32,259 nt of DNA from IMG/VR virus record IMGVR_UViG_3300044632_001024, positions 1-32,259 of that record. One strand, written 5' to 3'. A program made the position numbers and the translations under genes. This DNA comes from a virus. The notes under the pieces were generated by a model. The model was not told where the DNA came from, made no database searches, and worked only from the letters and a program-made list of their open reading frames with translations. Shown in pieces: positions 4,619 through 24,502 of this stretch (position 1 is its first letter; the number at the start of each line of letters is the position of its first letter).

Positions 4619-5406
4619 TATAGTTCCTCAATTTTTCTAAATTTTAGCGAACCAGTCTCGAAATATCCATTTAAACTTTGTGCATATAATTCACGAAGTT
4701 CAAAAGCCGTACCGTCCGCTCCGCCAGATGCGCTCTCTAAAATACATTCACTGTATTCATTTGGATCATCGCGGTCAGGTATAAACTCAACGCGCCCTTT
4801 AGTTATAAGGTATTCGAGAAAAGTTAAAATATTATTTACTGCATCAAGATCATTTTCAAATGGAGAATTGTGGGTCTGGGGATATTGATTAATGTATTTA
4901 ATGTTACATGTCATAGTTTTGACATTGCCATAAGACACAACTTCAACCAATCCACTAGCTGATTGATTAACACTAGCCGCTGCTGATCTTTGATTAAATC
5001 TAAAATCTTGAAAATCTTGTAAAAAGAATTGTGGCCTATAAACTTCGCCACTGCCAAATTGTCCAGTGTAAGAAGCTGAACCTGTTAAATCTTGCAGATC
5101 ATTAAAACCCATAGTCATAAATGCTGATATTAAAATAATGCTTGCCGTTTGGGTATATAGCGTGAAGGGGGCATCCCCTGTAATTGTGATAAATCGAGTT
5201 GCGCGGTCAACTGTGGTGTTGTAATTATTACCACCGCTGACTTCATTCATTGCTCGCTTTACTTCTTTAACGTAACCTTCCAAGGAATAATTTCCAATTC
5301 TAAGCTCGGCAATCAGTTCATTGATTCCGTCTTCACTAAATGAAATTGCTCGATTATCGTTAGTTACTGTGTGTCCAAAATAGAAACTTGATCTTGTGTA
5401 TATCAT
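4618..5406 (-). CDS. Putative distal tail protein
   Basis: 262 aa, starting inside the end of the tape measure gene (overlap of four bases, ATGA type). It begins MIYTRSSFYFGHTVT and has an N-terminal region of mixed alpha/beta (ELIAELRIGNYSLEGYVKEV), a long beta region (ASIILISAFMTMGF) and a C-terminal stretch ending in GYFETGSLKFRKIEEL. Position straight after the tape measure and before fibre genes, and length, match the distal tail (Dit-like) adaptor of siphoviruses, which closes the tail tube and binds fibres. No diagnostic motif is visible, so the call rests on gene order. Confidence 0.65.
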   Translation of the reverse strand: MIYTRSSFYFGHTVTNDNRAISFSEDGINELIAELRIGNYSLEGYVKEVKRAMNEVSGGNNYNTTVDRATRFITITGDAPFTLYTQTASIILISAFMTMGFNDLQDLTGSASYTGQFGSGEVYRPQFFLQDFQDFRFNQRSAAASVNQSASGLVEVVSYGNVKTMTCNIKYINQYPQTHNSPFENDLDAVNNILTFLEYLITKGRVEFIPDRDDPNEYSECILESASGGADGTAFELRELYAQSLNGYFETGSLKFRKIEEL

Positions 5407-7837: not shown

Positions 7838-8740
7838 TTACAGTTTAGACCAGTCGCCCCAAGCAATTAGATTAATGCTTTCATCGACTGAAGGATCAAG
7901 ATATGCTTTGAAAGAAACATTTAAAACTTGTTGATCAGAACCAGAGTAATTAATGTCGTTCGGAAGTGGTGCACACTTATGAATAACAACATCATAAGAC
8001 TTGTCACTCATTGGAAGCCTGATCGGATGAAGGATCAAAGAACCGCCGAGATTAGCGAATGATTGATAAAGTCTTGACTGACCAAAGCCTACTAATTCAG
8101 TGCCAATTTCAGGACTGAATTTATCACCAGCAACACCGCCAATAATAGTTTCAAGTCTTTCTTTTGAAACTTCAATTAATCCCATTTCAACTGAAACTGA
8201 GTTACCTACTGCAATGTCATCTAGCACTAGTTCACCAGTTTGGTCAGATTTAATTTCTACCGTTTGGCTCTCAAGTGAAACAGTAGATCCACCCTGAGCA
8301 GTTCTACCAAGTTCGCCGCCAATACCTTGAATGTCGATTGAGTAAGAAACACCAGCATCAATATCAGCCTCAACTGTAGTTGCTCCGATGTATTTATTCA
8401 TGACTTCAATTTCTCCACCGCCAAGATTTTCAAAGACAACTGGAATCTCAAGCGCCTCAAGTGCAGCAATAACTTTACCAGCAATTACTACTTCTGAATC
8501 ATTCTCGGCAATAGTTACAGCATATGCTGTTTTCCCAGCAATTACAGGATTAGTGTTAAAGTAAACATATCCCAAAACTTCTTCAAGATCTGAGTTGATA
8601 TAATTAAACTCAAAAGCAGCGCCGAACAAACCTTCGGAAACATCTTCTTGAAACTGAAATTTTCTGCAATGTTTTGTACCCCAGTAAGCTCGAACTGCTT
8701 CCAGTTTAATTTCACTCGTGTTAGTCATACATAAAGCCAT
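7838..8740 (-). CDS. Major tail tube protein
   Basis: 300 aa, ATG at 8740 seven bases after AGGAG. Beta-rich with many short strands (EVVIAGKVIAALEALEIPVV, SYSIDIQGIGG, TVEIKSDQTGELVLDDIAVG), and a C-terminal half similar in style to tube proteins (SYDVVIHKCAPLPN, QQVLNVSFKAYLDP). Its place immediately before the tail chaperone pair and tape measure, and a flanking hairpin typical of highly expressed structural genes, support tail tube. A role as a capsid-associated protein is unlikely given the order. Confidence 0.82.
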   Translation of the reverse strand: MALCMTNTSEIKLEAVRAYWGTKHCRKFQFQEDVSEGLFGAAFEFNYINSDLEEVLGYVYFNTNPVIAGKTAYAVTIAENDSEVVIAGKVIAALEALEIPVVFENLGGGEIEVMNKYIGATTVEADIDAGVSYSIDIQGIGGELGRTAQGGSTVSLESQTVEIKSDQTGELVLDDIAVGNSVSVEMGLIEVSKERLETIIGGVAGDKFSPEIGTELVGFGQSRLYQSFANLGGSLILHPIRLPMSDKSYDVVIHKCAPLPNDINYSGSDQQVLNVSFKAYLDPSVDESINLIAWGDWSKL

Positions 8741-10003: not shown

Positions 10004-10030
10004 AAAGTAAAAGGGGGAGTTGCCTCCCCC
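10004..10030 (-). terminator. Intrinsic terminator after the 811-aa fibre gene
   Basis: On the minus strand GGGGGAG and CTCCCCC form a perfect 7-bp stem with a GCAA tetraloop, followed by TTTTACTTT. It begins only a few bases after the fibre stop codon and before the connector gene. In a long late transcript it would reduce read-through from the capsid and fibre block into the tail block, or mark a transcript end. Confidence 0.85.
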
Positions 10031-13479: not shown

Positions 13480-13507
13480 TTAAAGAAGGGCCAACATACG
13501 CTGGCCC
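13480..13507 (-). terminator. Terminator after the major capsid gene
   Basis: On the minus strand GGGCCAGC and GTTGGCCC pair over 8 bp (one G-U) around GTAT, followed by TTCTTT. It lies about 20 bases after the capsid stop codon. A partial terminator straight after the major capsid gene is a common way to give capsid protein the highest yield. Confidence 0.8.
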
Positions 13508-18934: not shown

Positions 18935-19268
18935 AATCGACCACCAGTTTATCCACGTTATGATTTATTGATTGTTCTTGCTTATCTGATTGACCTAAGT
19001 ACTGCTTACCAAGCCAAATTAAAAGGGCGGTATTCCCAGCCATAGCGGCTTCGTATTGTTTACGTCTAAGACTTATCTTGCCACTTGATCTCTTTTGGCT
19101 ATAATACTCCGAAAAAGTTACGCCATGCACCTCTTTAACGCGATTCTCAATTGTATCAACTGAGCAATTAAACCAACCAGCAATTTCCTCAAGTGTGCAT
19201 TGTAAGCCGCATAATTTATCAAACTCTTTGAAGTCTATTTCTATTCGAGGTCTACCCATTACGCTCAT
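18915..19268 (-). CDS. Terminase small subunit
   Basis: 117 aa, ATG at 19268 overlapping the methyltransferase stop (ATGA), with GAGG seven bases upstream; the GRPRIE start (Met4) is an alternative. An N-terminal helix-turn-helix is visible (CTLEEIAGWFNCSVDTIENR), followed by KRSSGKISLRRKQYEAAMAG and GNTALLIWLGKQYLGQSDK, the pattern of a common small-terminase family. It recognises phage DNA at the packaging start and regulates the large subunit. Confidence 0.92.
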   Translation of the reverse strand: MSVMGRPRIEIDFKEFDKLCGLQCTLEEIAGWFNCSVDTIENRVKEVHGVTFSEYYSQKRSSGKISLRRKQYEAAMAGNTALLIWLGKQYLGQSDKQEQSINHNVDKLVVDFGDSEV

Positions 19269-20461
19269 TTGTCACCTCGTTCTAGTTTTAGCTCTTCGTA
19301 TATTTGGCCAGTTAGTTCTAGTGTTGCTTTTTTACCAGTGAAATTTTGCCACCGATTTACTATTATATCACAATATTTTTCGTCTAATTCCATCCCGTAA
19401 CATTTTCTGTTTGTTTTCTCGCAAGCGATTAGAGTTGAACCAGAGCCAAGGAATAAATCTAAAATTAAATTTTCTGCTTTCAAATATTCAAAACATTTTT
19501 CAATTAAAAGCAATGGCTTCTGGTTTGGGTGCAACCTTTTCTCGTTCTCACCTTCTTTTATCATTCCTTTCCACGCCACCTTTATTGTCTTTGTGTGAAT
19601 TTCGCAATTAGTCCAAGCTATTTCCGTACCACAAAAATCGTCAGCAGGGAGATCGCCCCTTTTATCCCAGCATATAAAGCATTTAGTGTTCCCTAGGGCT
19701 GTTAAAAAATAATTTGCGCCCCAGTATAATTGTTTCCTTACCCCTAAGCCATTAACCAGATTTATCACATCAACAGCGCACTTAATCGAATTATCATTTT
19801 TAATATAATGATAATCTGTTTTTTTAGCTAGTCCGTTCCCGTTGCCGTCACCAATTTTCAAATTAATCCCATAAGGTGGATCAGTAAAAACCATGTCAGC
19901 CTTTTCACCATTCATTAACTTTTCAACATCATCAATCATGGTTGAATCACCGCACATCAATCTATGATTGCCAAGTAGCCAAATATCACCTTTTCTTGTA
20001 ATTGGATGAATAACTTCTGGTATTTCATCCTCATCGGTCAATGGGTCAAATTTCTCTATTGGTTCAATGGTAAAATCTTTTAAGCCTAGCATTTCAATTT
20101 CAAAATCAGGGCCTAAGTCCAACATCTCTTTGTTGATCTCACTCAAGTCCAGGTCTGCCCATTCTGCTATTGCATTATCACTAACAATAAAAGCGTATTC
20201 CTGCGCCTCGTCATTGAAGTCTTGATAATTAACTGCGGCTTTTTCCCATCCCAATTTTTTAATTGCCTCTAATCGTCCATGCCCCACAACTACAAAACCT
20301 GACCTGTTTGAAACGATAATCGGGTGTCTCTGCCCTTGATAATCAAGTAGCTTTGACAACCTATCAATCTGATCTTGTGGGTGCTTATTTGGATTCTTTG
20401 GGTTTGGGATAATCTTATGAAGCTCTAAGAGTTCATCATGTGCGCAATTTATTTTCATCAT
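19265..20461 (-). CDS. ParB-like / DNA methyltransferase fusion
   Basis: 398 aa, ATG-ATG start at 20461 after GAAGG. Residues 12-95 are a ParB/sulfiredoxin-like domain: NPKNPNKHPQDQIDRLSKLL and VVVGHGRLEAIKKLGW. Residues 155-380 are an amino-methyltransferase with the target motif TDPPYG (residues 194-199) before the SAM motif LDLFLGSGST (334-343), the beta-class order of N6-adenine or N4-cytosine enzymes. Such ParB-MTase fusions are frequent in phages and mobile elements. Position just before the terminase genes suggests methylation coupled to late expression or packaging, or protection against host restriction. No restriction partner gene is present. Recognition site unknown. Confidence 0.92.
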   Translation of the reverse strand: MMKINCAHDELLELHKIIPNPKNPNKHPQDQIDRLSKLLDYQGQRHPIIVSNRSGFVVVGHGRLEAIKKLGWEKAAVNYQDFNDEAQEYAFIVSDNAIAEWADLDLSEINKEMLDLGPDFEIEMLGLKDFTIEPIEKFDPLTDEDEIPEVIHPITRKGDIWLLGNHRLMCGDSTMIDDVEKLMNGEKADMVFTDPPYGINLKIGDGNGNGLAKKTDYHYIKNDNSIKCAVDVINLVNGLGVRKQLYWGANYFLTALGNTKCFICWDKRGDLPADDFCGTEIAWTNCEIHTKTIKVAWKGMIKEGENEKRLHPNQKPLLLIEKCFEYLKAENLILDLFLGSGSTLIACEKTNRKCYGMELDEKYCDIIVNRWQNFTGKKATLELTGQIYEELKLERGDK

Positions 20462-20510: not shown

Positions 20511-21317
20511 TTAATGTGTCAAGTTTTTGACTGATGAAATTTCTTTTAGCTTTTTAATTTGATTCTTGTATTTTAATGATGTTTTTTCAAAATCTTTATA
20601 TAGCCTGTTTACTTTTTGCTGGTTTTTTTCTATCTCCATCTCTGCGTAATTAACCTCGACTATTTCAACTTCTCCTCGATCAACCTTCCATTCAAAGGCT
20701 CTACTGGCGTTAAGATAGCTTTTAAAATACCCTTTATATTTATGCATATTTTTACCAGTCTTTGAGCAAATACCCATATAAACTATGTCTGGCTTAAATC
20801 CCTTTTTATATTCATGGCTATTTTTAAGGTGCGAAATAAGCAATTTTGACTTAGCTTCATCATCAATATTGGCAGTGCTAATACACTCTATTGCCTCATA
20901 AGCATCCCTACTGGCCAATGCATTAACCACTCTGTGGGCTAAAAAATTACCATATTTCTCTGATGCGTCAAATGATCTCTTGTAGAGCTCATGAAACTTT
21001 TTACTAAATACTAATTTTTCATCCTGATGAACCTTGTAAATATCCTCTACGTAGTAAAAAAAATCCAAAACTTCTGGTATTTTACATTCATCAATAACCA
21101 AAAACGCATAATCAAACGCAAGATTTCTTAGCAAGCCCTTGCTGATTAACTTTTTTTTACTATCAAATAAAACCTTTTTTCTGTTTTCCCAAGATATTTT
21201 CTTAAGTCTAGCAAAGTCTATTAATGAATAACTTTTATTGTAATGATTTTCAAACTCAATTAGACAATCCTCGTAATTATTATTTTCTAAATATTCTCTG
21301 TTTATAATTTCTTTCAT
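20511..21317 (-). CDS. Unknown basic helical protein with GIY-YIG-like absent; possible accessory gene
   Basis: 268 aa from the ATG at 21317, chosen because a GAGGGGG site lies seven bases upstream; eight residues longer is possible from 21341. Lys- and Tyr-rich, helical. The first half (ENHYNKSYSLIDFARLKKIS, VLDFFYYVEDIYKVHQDEKL) looks globular; residues 180-230 contain GFKPDIVYMGICSKTGKNMH and YFKSYLNASRAFEWKVD, which read like a small nucleic-acid-contact or Tyr-rich region; the last 40 residues form a basic coiled coil. I recognise no family. It is noticeably more AT-rich than its neighbours and stands alone in its own gap, so it may be a later acquisition. Confidence 0.75.
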   Translation of the reverse strand: MKEIINREYLENNNYEDCLIEFENHYNKSYSLIDFARLKKISWENRKKVLFDSKKKLISKGLLRNLAFDYAFLVIDECKIPEVLDFFYYVEDIYKVHQDEKLVFSKKFHELYKRSFDASEKYGNFLAHRVVNALASRDAYEAIECISTANIDDEAKSKLLISHLKNSHEYKKGFKPDIVYMGICSKTGKNMHKYKGYFKSYLNASRAFEWKVDRGEVEIVEVNYAEMEIEKNQQKVNRLYKDFEKTSLKYKNQIKKLKEISSVKNLTH

Positions 21318-21437
21318 AACTACCCCCTCTTTTAATTGCAATGCTTCATTAAATTCCTACACCATTATTTTTAGTTTATCTTAGGTTTAATTTCAGAATC
21401 CATATCGCTGGTTTTTAAGATGATTTAAACCAGTGCA

Positions 21438-22280: not shown

Positions 22281-22604
22281 TCACCCCTCCGTTTTTATAG
22301 CGTTTATTGCCTCAGTTATTGTCTTGCCAGAATTGATCAGCTTAATCATGCCAGCATATTCTTTCTTAAACCCTTTTCTTTCTTCACTGCAAACCATTAA
22401 AACTTTTCCAGTAGTATTTTCAAAAAAATCTTTAATCTCTTTTTCCTCTAAGTCAGATAAACAAAATACAGCAACCGCTAAAAACTTAGCTTTGATCCAG
22501 TCATCAATTTCAAATACTGAAATGCCTTGCTTGACTCCCATTCTAGAGCTGGCAATGTTTCCAATTTCAATAAAAGATTTGTCTGAATATAAATAAGTTT
22601 TCAT
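22281..22604 (-). CDS. Unknown protein, first gene of the leftward operon
   Basis: 107 aa. It begins MKTYLYSDKSFIEIGNIASS and looks alpha/beta (FLAVAVFCLSDLEEKEIKDF, GKVLMVCSEERKGFKKEYAG, LINSGKTITEAINAIKTEG). No family recognised. There is no ribosome-binding site before the ATG; instead a terminator-like hairpin with its U-run ends one base before it. The other strand is also open here, but this frame has the better protein and coupled downstream partners. Translation may be leaderless-like or depend on the hairpin state. Confidence 0.65.
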   Translation of the reverse strand: MKTYLYSDKSFIEIGNIASSRMGVKQGISVFEIDDWIKAKFLAVAVFCLSDLEEKEIKDFFENTTGKVLMVCSEERKGFKKEYAGMIKLINSGKTITEAINAIKTEG

Positions 22605-22648
22605 AAAATAAAACCCGACCTGTCACTCTCACTAGAAAACAGATCGGG
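22605..22648 (-). terminator. Terminator-like hairpin directly before the first leftward gene
   Basis: On the minus strand CCCGATCTGT (22648-22639) pairs with ACAGGTCGGG (22623-22614), 10 bp with one U-G, around a 15-base loop, then TTTTATTTT runs straight into the ATG at 22604. Its loop contains GTGAGAG, complementary to CTCTCAC in two upstream repeats. It therefore looks like an attenuator at the start of the leftward operon rather than the end of a transcript. Confidence 0.65.
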
Positions 22649-22715: not shown

Positions 22716-22738
22716 GTGAGAGCTTGTAGAAAATAAGG
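22716..22738. repeat. Spaced repeat GTGAGAG-N4-TAGAAAA-AAGG, copy 1
   Basis: Shares GTGAGAG, four bases, TAGAAAA and AAGG with 22826-22849. On the minus strand it gives CTCTCAC, complementary to the loop of the hairpin at 22614-22648, which itself carries TAGAAAA (22633-22639). Confidence 0.6.
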
Positions 22739-22815
22739 CAAAACGAAAGAAAAGTAAAATATAATATTTAGATAAATAAGTAAGTTCTATATAATAATTA
22801 ACTAGAATATATTAA

Positions 22816-22942
22816 ATGCATTTTGGTGAGAGGGAATAGAAAAGCAAGGGAGATAAGACAAGCACTTAATTTAAATAAACTAAAGCTTAATTATCTCTTG
22901 CCTATTACTAGTCGTATAACCAATTTGCTTTATGCATTTTGG
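22816..22942. repeat. Direct repeat ATGCATTTTGG (two copies)
   Basis: Exact 11-base copies at 22816-22826 and 22932-22942, each followed by a GAGG block. Between them an inverted repeat is present: GCAAGGGAGATAA (22844-22856) against TTATCTCTTGC (22891-22901), with a two-base insertion in one arm. A 15-base repeat ACTAGAAT(A/C)TATTAA also recurs at 22801-22815 and 23206-23220. Confidence 0.6.
22826..22849. repeat. Spaced repeat GTGAGAG-N4-TAGAAAA-AAGG, copy 2
   Basis: Second copy, with one extra base between TAGAAAA and AAGG. Equal spacing of the two blocks points to protein-binding half-sites or to RNA pairing partners. Confidence 0.6.
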
Positions 22943-23136: not shown

Positions 23137-23164
23137 TTTACAAATTTAACCAATCTGATAATAT
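23137..23164 (+). promoter_or_regulatory. Candidate rightward early promoter
   Basis: TTTACA (23137-23142), 16-base spacer, TAATAT (23159-23164). The predicted start is about 23171, exactly where the first pairing arm of the leader begins. It is the only good sigma70-like pair I see upstream of the early operon. Confidence 0.5.
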
Positions 23165-23171
23165 GCCACTC

Positions 23172-23290
23172 AGCTTGGAAAGCCAAAAGCATCAAAACAG
23201 TATTGACTAGAATCTATTAACAGTTGTGTGTGGATTGTTCTAGTCATTGGCCTAGCGAGTTCCCCTTCCAAGCTCTCGCTGGGCTTTTAT
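23172..23290 (+). ncRNA. Structured leader with mutually exclusive terminator and antiterminator
   Basis: Terminator: GCCTAGCGAG (23250-23259) with CTCGCTGGGC (23275-23284), 10 bp with one wobble, then TTTTAT. Competing structure: AGCTTGGAA (23172-23180) with TTCCAAGCT (23266-23274, inside the terminator loop); GCCAA (23182-23186) with TTGGC (23247-23251); TGACTAGAA (23204-23212) with TTCTAGTCA (23238-23246). The competing stems use bases of the terminator arm and its loop, so both cannot form fully except as a pseudoknot. The first arm would be at the very 5' end of the RNA. The ribosome-binding site of the first gene starts eight bases after the terminator stem. Pairings are exact; the switch is inferred. 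Confidence 0.65.
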
Positions 23291-23304
23291 AAAGGAGGGG
23301 ATAT

Positions 23305-23529
23305 ATGATAATTAACTATAGAAATGATGACGACATGCTGCAGTTACTTAGCTTACTTGATCAGTTACAAGTTGATGTAATTAATTCTAGGGTTGATGCC
23401 AGAGAATTTATATCTATTATTCAGGGCTATCAAGCAGCACTTGAAAACACCAACAGATTAAATGAGCGCATAGCAAGTGCGTATACTTATGTCAGCGTGG
23501 CAGCTTCTAAACTTGAAGGCAAGATATGA
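23305..23529 (+). CDS. Unknown first gene of the early operon
   Basis: 74 aa, ATG at 23305 six bases after AAGGAGG, the strongest ribosome-binding site in the window. Helical, with a heptad-like pattern (LLSLLDQLQVDVINSRVDAR, ENTNRLNERIASAYTYVSVA). It overlaps the ERF gene start (ATGA). Small partners just before ERF annealing proteins are common in phages, and some are host nuclease inhibitors or single-strand-binding helpers; nothing here proves this. Its control by the leader attenuator makes it the first protein after antitermination. Confidence 0.75.
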   Translation: MIINYRNDDDMLQLLSLLDQLQVDVINSRVDAREFISIIQGYQAALENTNRLNERIASAYTYVSVAASKLEGKI

Positions 23530-24260
23530 GTGACCAATGGGATATATGCCCAGAGCATGGGCGATATGACGAGCTGGCATGTCCTGATTGTGCGATGAAA
23601 AAACCTATTAAAAATTTAGATAAAGCGATGGAGAAAATTATGACTCAAAAACTAAACCTATTCCAAAAGATGCAAGCAATATATAAGCAGGTTGACAGCG
23701 TTGATAAGGGAGCTCGAATCCAAGCAGGTTATGGATCATACACCGCAGTCTTACATGATGATGTTACAAGACTGCTTCATAAGCCAATGGCTGAACTTGG
23801 AATTATATGTGTGTCTGATGTTTACGAGCATAATCTTGTTCAAATGGAAGTAGTTAAGAAGGGCGGCGAATTAGGCGTATCTTACCGCTCAGAAGTATCA
23901 ATGAAACTTATTCTAATAAATGCTGATGAACCGACTGAGAAACTTGAGATTACTAGTCATTCTTTTGCTATTGATTCTGGGGATAAGTCTTATGGCAAGG
24001 CAGTGTCAATGGCTACAAAATATGCCCTATTAAAAGCTTTTATGCTTGAATCTAGAGATAACGAAGAGTCGAGAGATCAAGAGCCACAAGCGGTTAAATC
24101 AGTTGCGCAATCAGTGAAACCAGCATCAGATAAACAAAAGGAAATAATTAAGAATAACTTGCAAAAGCAAGGTAAGTTTTCTGATGCAACTCAAAAATGG
24201 CTTGATGCTTTGAGTTCCAAAGATGCCAGCGCACAGATTGAAAAGATCATGGGCAAATAA
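23526..24260 (+). CDS. erf: ERF-family single-strand annealing protein
   Basis: 244 aa. The ERF core runs from about residue 40 to 180: KLNLFQKMQAIYKQVDSVDK, GYGSYTAVLHDDVTRLLHKP, LEITSHSFAIDSGDKSYGKA, VSMATKYALLKAFMLESRD. These match the ERF family (P22 Erf type), recombinases that anneal complementary strands and can circularise or multiply phage DNA. Before the core lies a compact zinc-ribbon-like segment (Cys8, His11, Cys19, Cys22). The last 60 residues are a Lys- and Gln-rich helical tail. It works with the exonuclease and RusA-like resolvase of the same operon. Activity on this DNA is inferred. Confidence 0.93.
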   Translation: MSDQWDICPEHGRYDELACPDCAMKKPIKNLDKAMEKIMTQKLNLFQKMQAIYKQVDSVDKGARIQAGYGSYTAVLHDDVTRLLHKPMAELGIICVSDVYEHNLVQMEVVKKGGELGVSYRSEVSMKLILINADEPTEKLEITSHSFAIDSGDKSYGKAVSMATKYALLKAFMLESRDNEESRDQEPQAVKSVAQSVKPASDKQKEIIKNNLQKQGKFSDATQKWLDALSSKDASAQIEKIMGK

Positions 24261-24502
24261 TGAAGCGTTCACTTTACGAGCATATGGAAACTAAAAAAAG
24301 AATTGAGCTTCATAAGGTTGAAAATTACTATTATAGTATAGATCAAAGACGATACCATATTAAAGAAATTAGATGTCTTTATAAGTTTTTAGGTTACATT
24401 CACAATCGGATTATAATCAAAAGAAATTATGAAGCGCATCGAAATGTTAATGGGTTTTTAATTCGCAGCTATAAGAGGAAACATGATAACAGCAAAGCAT
24501 AA
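24260..24502 (+). CDS. Unknown small basic protein
   Basis: 80 aa, coupled to the ERF gene by TAATG. Very basic and Tyr/His-rich (MKRSLYEHMETKKRIELHKV, IHNRIIIKRNYEAHRNVNGF, IRSYKRKHDNSKA), so likely a nucleic-acid or phosphate-binding protein. No family recognised. Confidence 0.65.
   Translation: MKRSLYEHMETKKRIELHKVENYYYSIDQRRYHIKEIRCLYKFLGYIHNRIIIKRNYEAHRNVNGFLIRSYKRKHDNSKA

Follow-up and report, generated by a model that had tools for sequence, protein, structure and literature searches.

How are the early genes of this phage expressed, when a terminator-type hairpin stands directly in front of the first of them? The window analyzed here, by which we mean the whole stretch of 32,259 nucleotides, contains two divergent operons on either side of a 700-bp intergenic region. 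The rightward operon (+ strand), starting at 23305, encodes a 74-aa protein followed by ERF-like, HNH-like, DNA polymerase exonuclease subunit-like, metallopeptidase-like and RusA-like resolvase products, and since these are of recombination and replication types, "early operon" is a fair name for it. Its first gene (23305-23529, +; 74 aa) has no family match in PHROGs or Pfam, while the second (23526-24260, +) codes for an ERF-like single-strand annealing protein (phrog_155, 6e-18; PF04404, 1e-8) whose best matches by E-value are from Bdellovibrio phages. The leftward operon (- strand), which starts at 22604, holds the terminase and structural genes. An apparent ParB-like/DNA methyltransferase gene (19265-20461, -), named by reading of its sequence alone, adjoins the terminase small subunit gene and has relatives in contigs L007 and L008, at 53% identity.

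The putative intrinsic terminator of the early leader (23250-23290, +) consists of a 10-bp stem (23250-23259/23275-23284; GCCTAGCGAG and CTCGCTGGGC, with one G-U and seven G-C pairs), a 15-nt loop (23260-23274) and the short U-tract TTTTAT, and is followed by the Shine-Dalgarno sequence GGAGGGG and by the ATG at 23305; it stands 20 nt upstream of this first early start codon. The hairpin alone is predicted at -16.9 kcal/mol, and 23250-23288 folds with z = -4.0 against shuffles. A search along both strands of the entire window, in which an uninterrupted stem of 8 bp or more, a loop no longer than 20 nt and a T-rich tail were required, gave three matches in 32 kb: 23250-23284 (+), 22648-22614 (-) and 13507-13488 (-). 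Whole-window shuffles yield one to four such terminators, which makes their number ordinary and leaves their position as the unusual feature: the 700-bp divergent region contains two of them, each on the transcribed strand and directly 5' of a first start codon, and the third stands just 5' of another late gene. A G+C-rich stem followed by a U-tract within a 5' leader is the arrangement of a terminator or attenuator leader, and that both the terminator and the early leader are genuine is, to our mind, highly probable. Two terminator-like hairpins just 5' of late-region start codons, at 13488-13507 (-) and 10013-10030 (-), are both kept in a contig 95% identical to the window (L012, at 4915-4934 and 8392-8409).

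The promoter of this leader is predicted at 23137-23164 (+) from a consensus match, TTTACA-16-TAATAT with an extended TG, which ranks 20th among 32,223 positions of the + strand with an approximate matrix; a transcript start near 23170-23172 is plausible on that match alone. The promoter scan gave no convincing promoter between the terminator and the ATG at 23305, and in the only candidate inside the leader, whose -10 element is at 23239, the conserved A of that element is missing. The operon must therefore be transcribed through the terminator, and any credible upstream promoter has to read through 23250-23284. The hairpin, its place, the complementarities described below and this lack of a convincing promoter can be read directly from the DNA. 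The divergent promoters possibly overlap and have -10 DNA in common, at 23159-23164 (+) and 23163-23158 (-), within spans of 23137-23164 (+) and 23158-23186 (-).

We propose that the leader is an attenuator of the early, recombination and replication, operon that is off by default, a reading to which we give a probability of about one half. Transcription from the promoter near 23137-23164 would meet the terminator when the first start codon is still 20 nt away. By default this would yield a short RNA, roughly 120 nt long and spanning about 23171-23290, with only a fraction of the polymerases reading through. The first 15 nt or so of the transcript (23172-23186) would serve as a switch strand, pairing during synthesis with the 5' strand of the terminator at 23256-23261 and 23247-23251; a less durable partner would be the terminator loop (23266-23274). 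Such pairing would delay or disfavor the terminator. In the read-through mRNA, the terminator loop (23262-23268) would pair with 23294-23300 and partly mask the ribosome-binding site, a mask that could be broken when 23266-23274 is bound by a 5' arm, be it that of the mRNA itself or that of a second leader RNA. That the choice between these folds is regulated is what we infer from the layout, and the specific switch by the 5' arm is a tentative part of the proposal.

The pairings on which this proposal draws had been listed in the sequence-only reading, and direct reading together with repeat and stem scans recovered all four of them at exactly the positions given there. Besides the terminator stem, these are the 9-bp pairing between the 5' arm and the terminator loop (AGCTTGGAA, 23172-23180, with TTCCAAGCT, 23266-23274), the 5-bp stem P1 (GCCAA, 23182-23186, with TTGGC, 23247-23251) and the 9-bp stem P2 (TGACTAGAA, 23204-23212, with TTCTAGTCA, 23238-23246). 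P1 closes around P2 in a predicted leader hairpin (23182-23251, +; z = -2.2), and shares two bases (23250-23251) with the terminator stem. The 5' arm, AGCUUGGAA (23172-23180, +), is a candidate switch strand by its complementarity and in the predicted folds, where it has several partners: CCAAAAGC nearby, through GCUUGG; 23256-23261 in the 5' strand of the terminator; and the loop at 23266-23274.

The terminator and antiterminator folds had also been called exclusive, and this holds if pseudoknots are forbidden; however, the 9-bp arm pairs within the loop (23260-23274) and has no base in common with the stem. Arm and stem formed together make an H-type pseudoknot whose helices abut between 23274 and 23275, and the terminator might thus even be strengthened by the arm. 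A more credible competitor for the stem is the combination of 23172-23177/23256-23261 with 23182-23186/23247-23251, which occupies the 5' strand of the terminator and is thereby the alternative fold, sequestering terminator stem bases, that is expected of an attenuator. RNA polymerase covers about 14 nt of RNA, hence 23247-23261 would be free when the enzyme is near 23275, while the loop partner of the arm would become free only with the enzyme near 23288, the point of release. From this cover, the arm/loop helix appears to be a poor antiterminator, and 23172-23177/23256-23261 with P1 would be a better one.

The order in which the folds appear was predicted for transcripts of increasing length. 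The best fold of a transcript that stops at 23262 combines 23172-23177/23256-23261 with P1 and P2, the hairpin 23204-23246 being enclosed. At 3' ends 23276-23280 the arm/loop pairing reaches a predicted probability of 0.91-0.95, and at 23284-23298 the terminator takes over with 0.99-1.0. At 23300-23302 P1 and a ribosome-site hairpin, in which 23262-23268 pairs with 23294-23300 around a small inner hairpin, replace the terminator as the predicted fold, and at 23302-23320 the stem competitor is again the best fold, although at 23284-23298 the terminator is by far the stronger. The scheme of antiterminator and terminator put forward earlier thus agrees with the predicted order, arm/loop first (23276-23280) and terminator from 23284, but it is weakened by the energies: the terminator fold is favored over arm/loop pairing by about 10 kcal/mol, and antiterminator folds in general would lose to the terminator, without help, by about 10-14 kcal/mol.

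Could a protein provide the control? In such a scheme, an N-like protein for the early operon and a Q-like one for the late operon would override both terminators, the arm/loop match being incidental. The two terminators invite this comparison: that of the leftward leader (22614-22648, -; 11-bp stem, 13-nt loop) has the same total length of 35 nt and the same TTTTAT tail as the early one, and such a matched pair before the first early and the first late gene is what N/Q-type control would look like. There are also several small early proteins without assigned function, one of which, the product of 24260-24502, is very basic. Against it, no N- or Q-family match was found among the proteins scanned with PHROGs and Pfam, and the two leaders showed no nut-like sequence in common, their repeats being short; boxA/boxB were looked for by eye only. 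We hold protein-dependent antitermination to be possible, if on the unlikely side. The argument that no N-like protein is recognizable, and that the leader may hence be an RNA-only switch, is half sustained: the protein scans agree with its first part, but given the small early proteins, one of them very basic, the second does not follow.

The leftward leader has peculiarities of its own. The tail of its terminator, TTTTATTTT, directly abuts the ATG at 22604, without a ribosome site. This recalls late control of the lambda type, exerted by a Q-like factor; alternatively, the true start lies further down. The loop of this terminator contains GUGAGAG, and the upstream left leader carries CUCUCAC twice, a complementarity with P = 0.02 in shuffles if the leader begins near 23151. 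The left leader could then have the same layout as the right one, a loop complementary to the upstream leader, although more weakly. A GTGAGAG...TAGAAAA repeat occurs as direct copies at 22716-22733 and 22826-22843 and inverted at 22619-22638, in the left terminator loop; possible roles are operator sites or leader/loop complementarity. Another direct repeat, ATTRACTAGAATMTATTAA, is found at 22797-22815 and 23202-23220 (17 of 19 positions identical, 405 nt apart) and may be an operator. ACTAGAA occurs on the + strand three times in the 700-bp region, against five times in the whole window.

Repeat comparison of the two leaders also bears on a control by put RNAs, which act without a dedicated protein. 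In phage HK022, putL and putR are about 70 nt long, form two stem-loops, are similar in both early leaders, bind the zinc-binding domain of the polymerase beta' subunit and act on terminators far downstream (PMC9378689). The early leader described here is likewise an early-operon leader RNA near its promoter, proposed to work without a dedicated protein; in contrast to HK022, a two-stem RNA alike in both leaders was not found, since they have only short repeats in common and their predicted folds differ, and any switch would involve a single adjacent terminator.

A plain insulating terminator is the next explanation. It would block stray transcription into the early genes, unswitched, and the pairings would be due to chance. 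The statistics of the pairings are partly in its favor, since dinucleotide shuffling of the leader produces a perfect 9-mer inverted pair at a rate of 2% for 121 nt and of 5% for 168 nt. For two such pairs the rates are 0.5% and 1.7%, and the whole 700-bp intergenic region has three 9-mer pairs where 3.1 are expected by chance. The fold of 23170-23290 has z = -3.5 (none of 300 shuffles), and the terminator contributes most of this signal, the 23182-23251 hairpin less. On the other side, when the loop is kept fixed and the upstream leader is shuffled, a 9-mer arm/loop match has P = 0.0008; this 9-mer was picked after the fact, and P is 0.02-0.05 for the leader at large. The lack of a convincing promoter beyond the terminator, which means that the operon itself has to be read through, also argues against a mere insulator, and we regard this explanation as unlikely.

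A further explanation places the control in trans. A small RNA derived from the leader, comparable to IsrK or to the immunity RNAs of P4 and P1, would bind the read-through mRNA at 23262-23274 and switch translation or termination. The predicted short RNA has its own terminator and carries, in its 5' arm, the complement of the strand that would mask the ribosome site. This strand is an anti-Shine-Dalgarno motif, CCCCUUC, in the terminator loop (23262-23268, +), complementary to the Shine-Dalgarno GGAGGGG of the first early gene (23294-23300, +); the duplex, at -14.4 kcal/mol, is equaled by 0.1% of random 15-mers of the window and by 7% of shuffled loops, and as 7% of shuffled C-rich loops match as well, it is suggestive only. 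For a transcript extending to 23340, the predicted probabilities are 0.40 for the terminator, 0.36 for the masking hairpin and 0.30 for an unpaired Shine-Dalgarno. When 23266-23274 is occupied, a state imposed by folding constraints on the native sequence, the last value rises from 0.30 to 0.75. The loop would thus have three predicted states: unpaired in the terminator, bound to the 5' arm and bound to the ribosome site.

There is a precedent with such logic. In the Gifsy-1 prophage of Salmonella, IsrK is made as a short terminated RNA and as a read-through mRNA whose ribosome site is masked until the short form exposes it in trans (PMC4825925). The early leader would resemble this system, the closest in logic among those compared, in a short terminated RNA and a masked read-through mRNA, both of them predictions here, in its alternative leader folds and in the complementarity of the short RNA to its own target. 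It differs in that no sequence relation is seen, the first genes match no antirepressor, and the short RNA is one that may act in trans, as we infer. The same complementarity is available in cis, and the leader has no Rfam match to the C4 model (RF01695) at the gathering score, so that membership in this family was rejected. Control by such a small RNA in trans is, on balance, quite improbable.

Phage leaders with internal complementarity are familiar. The C4 antisense RNA of P1 and P7 is one in which this complementarity governs premature termination before early genes. In satellite P4, pairing of the leader RNA by the CI RNA causes premature termination (PMC4825925). The likeness lies in internal complementarity of a leader RNA and in termination before early genes, but in the present leader the gene is directly preceded by an intrinsic terminator, and the complementary arm is at the 5' end. 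The atoC RNA motif (RF01733) of delta-proteobacteria (PMC2864571) likewise has a terminator-like hairpin at its end, complete with U-tract and CCCUCCU loop, and gives a weak full-length alignment to 23201-23291 (E = 0.14); at 23.4 bits against a cut-off of 50, and absent from the family search at E <= 10, membership was rejected. A leader peptide controlling the hairpins by its translation is hardly credible, the 15-codon frame from ATG 23163 to TAG 23208-23210 being present, with its stop inside the 5' strand of P2, but rejected for want of a Shine-Dalgarno sequence, with an ATG that overlaps the predicted -10 and no run of a single amino acid.

No relatives of the leader were found in phages or plasmids, and none among viral contigs queried with the first early gene, the ERF gene alone, the first left gene or 20511-21341. 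Neither the TerL relatives, nor the exonuclease-subunit relatives, nor the 61 ERF relatives carry the early leader, and the ERF and exonuclease relatives belong to phages with other leaders. A TerL search of genome contigs gave no relative. The contig of 95% nucleotide identity mentioned above (L012) ends inside TerL, short of the leader, and the nearest by terminase (L002; 75% amino-acid identity) does not reach it. In the Bdellovibrio phages phi1402 and MAC3UK, whose ERF proteins are closest by E-value, the records begin at the ERF gene and opposite-strand genes fill the record end. A DNA pattern made of the two 9-mer arms had 44 matches, unrelated and due to chance, several being copies of the same sequence. 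That no related leader turned up, and with it no conservation or covariation of the pairings, counts against the proposed attenuator.

The sequence-only reading had supposed a switch of a new type, a claim that is not supported, as leader RNAs of like kind are known in prophages and satellites (IsrK, P4 CI RNA; PMC4825925); an RNA-only switch of new type is very improbable. We give equally little credence to the most elaborate form of our proposal, in which the 5' end would be a three-way switch strand and the loop an anti-Shine-Dalgarno, one protein-free RNA setting termination as well as translation and the short RNA exerting feedback in trans. At present the leader is a well-formed attenuator candidate that rests on its sequence and predicted folds. 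Should it prove real, the phage would possess a device for timing or immunity that works at the RNA level, in a region for which the searched collections contain no close relative, and the leader would add a case of a single loop that governs both termination and translation.
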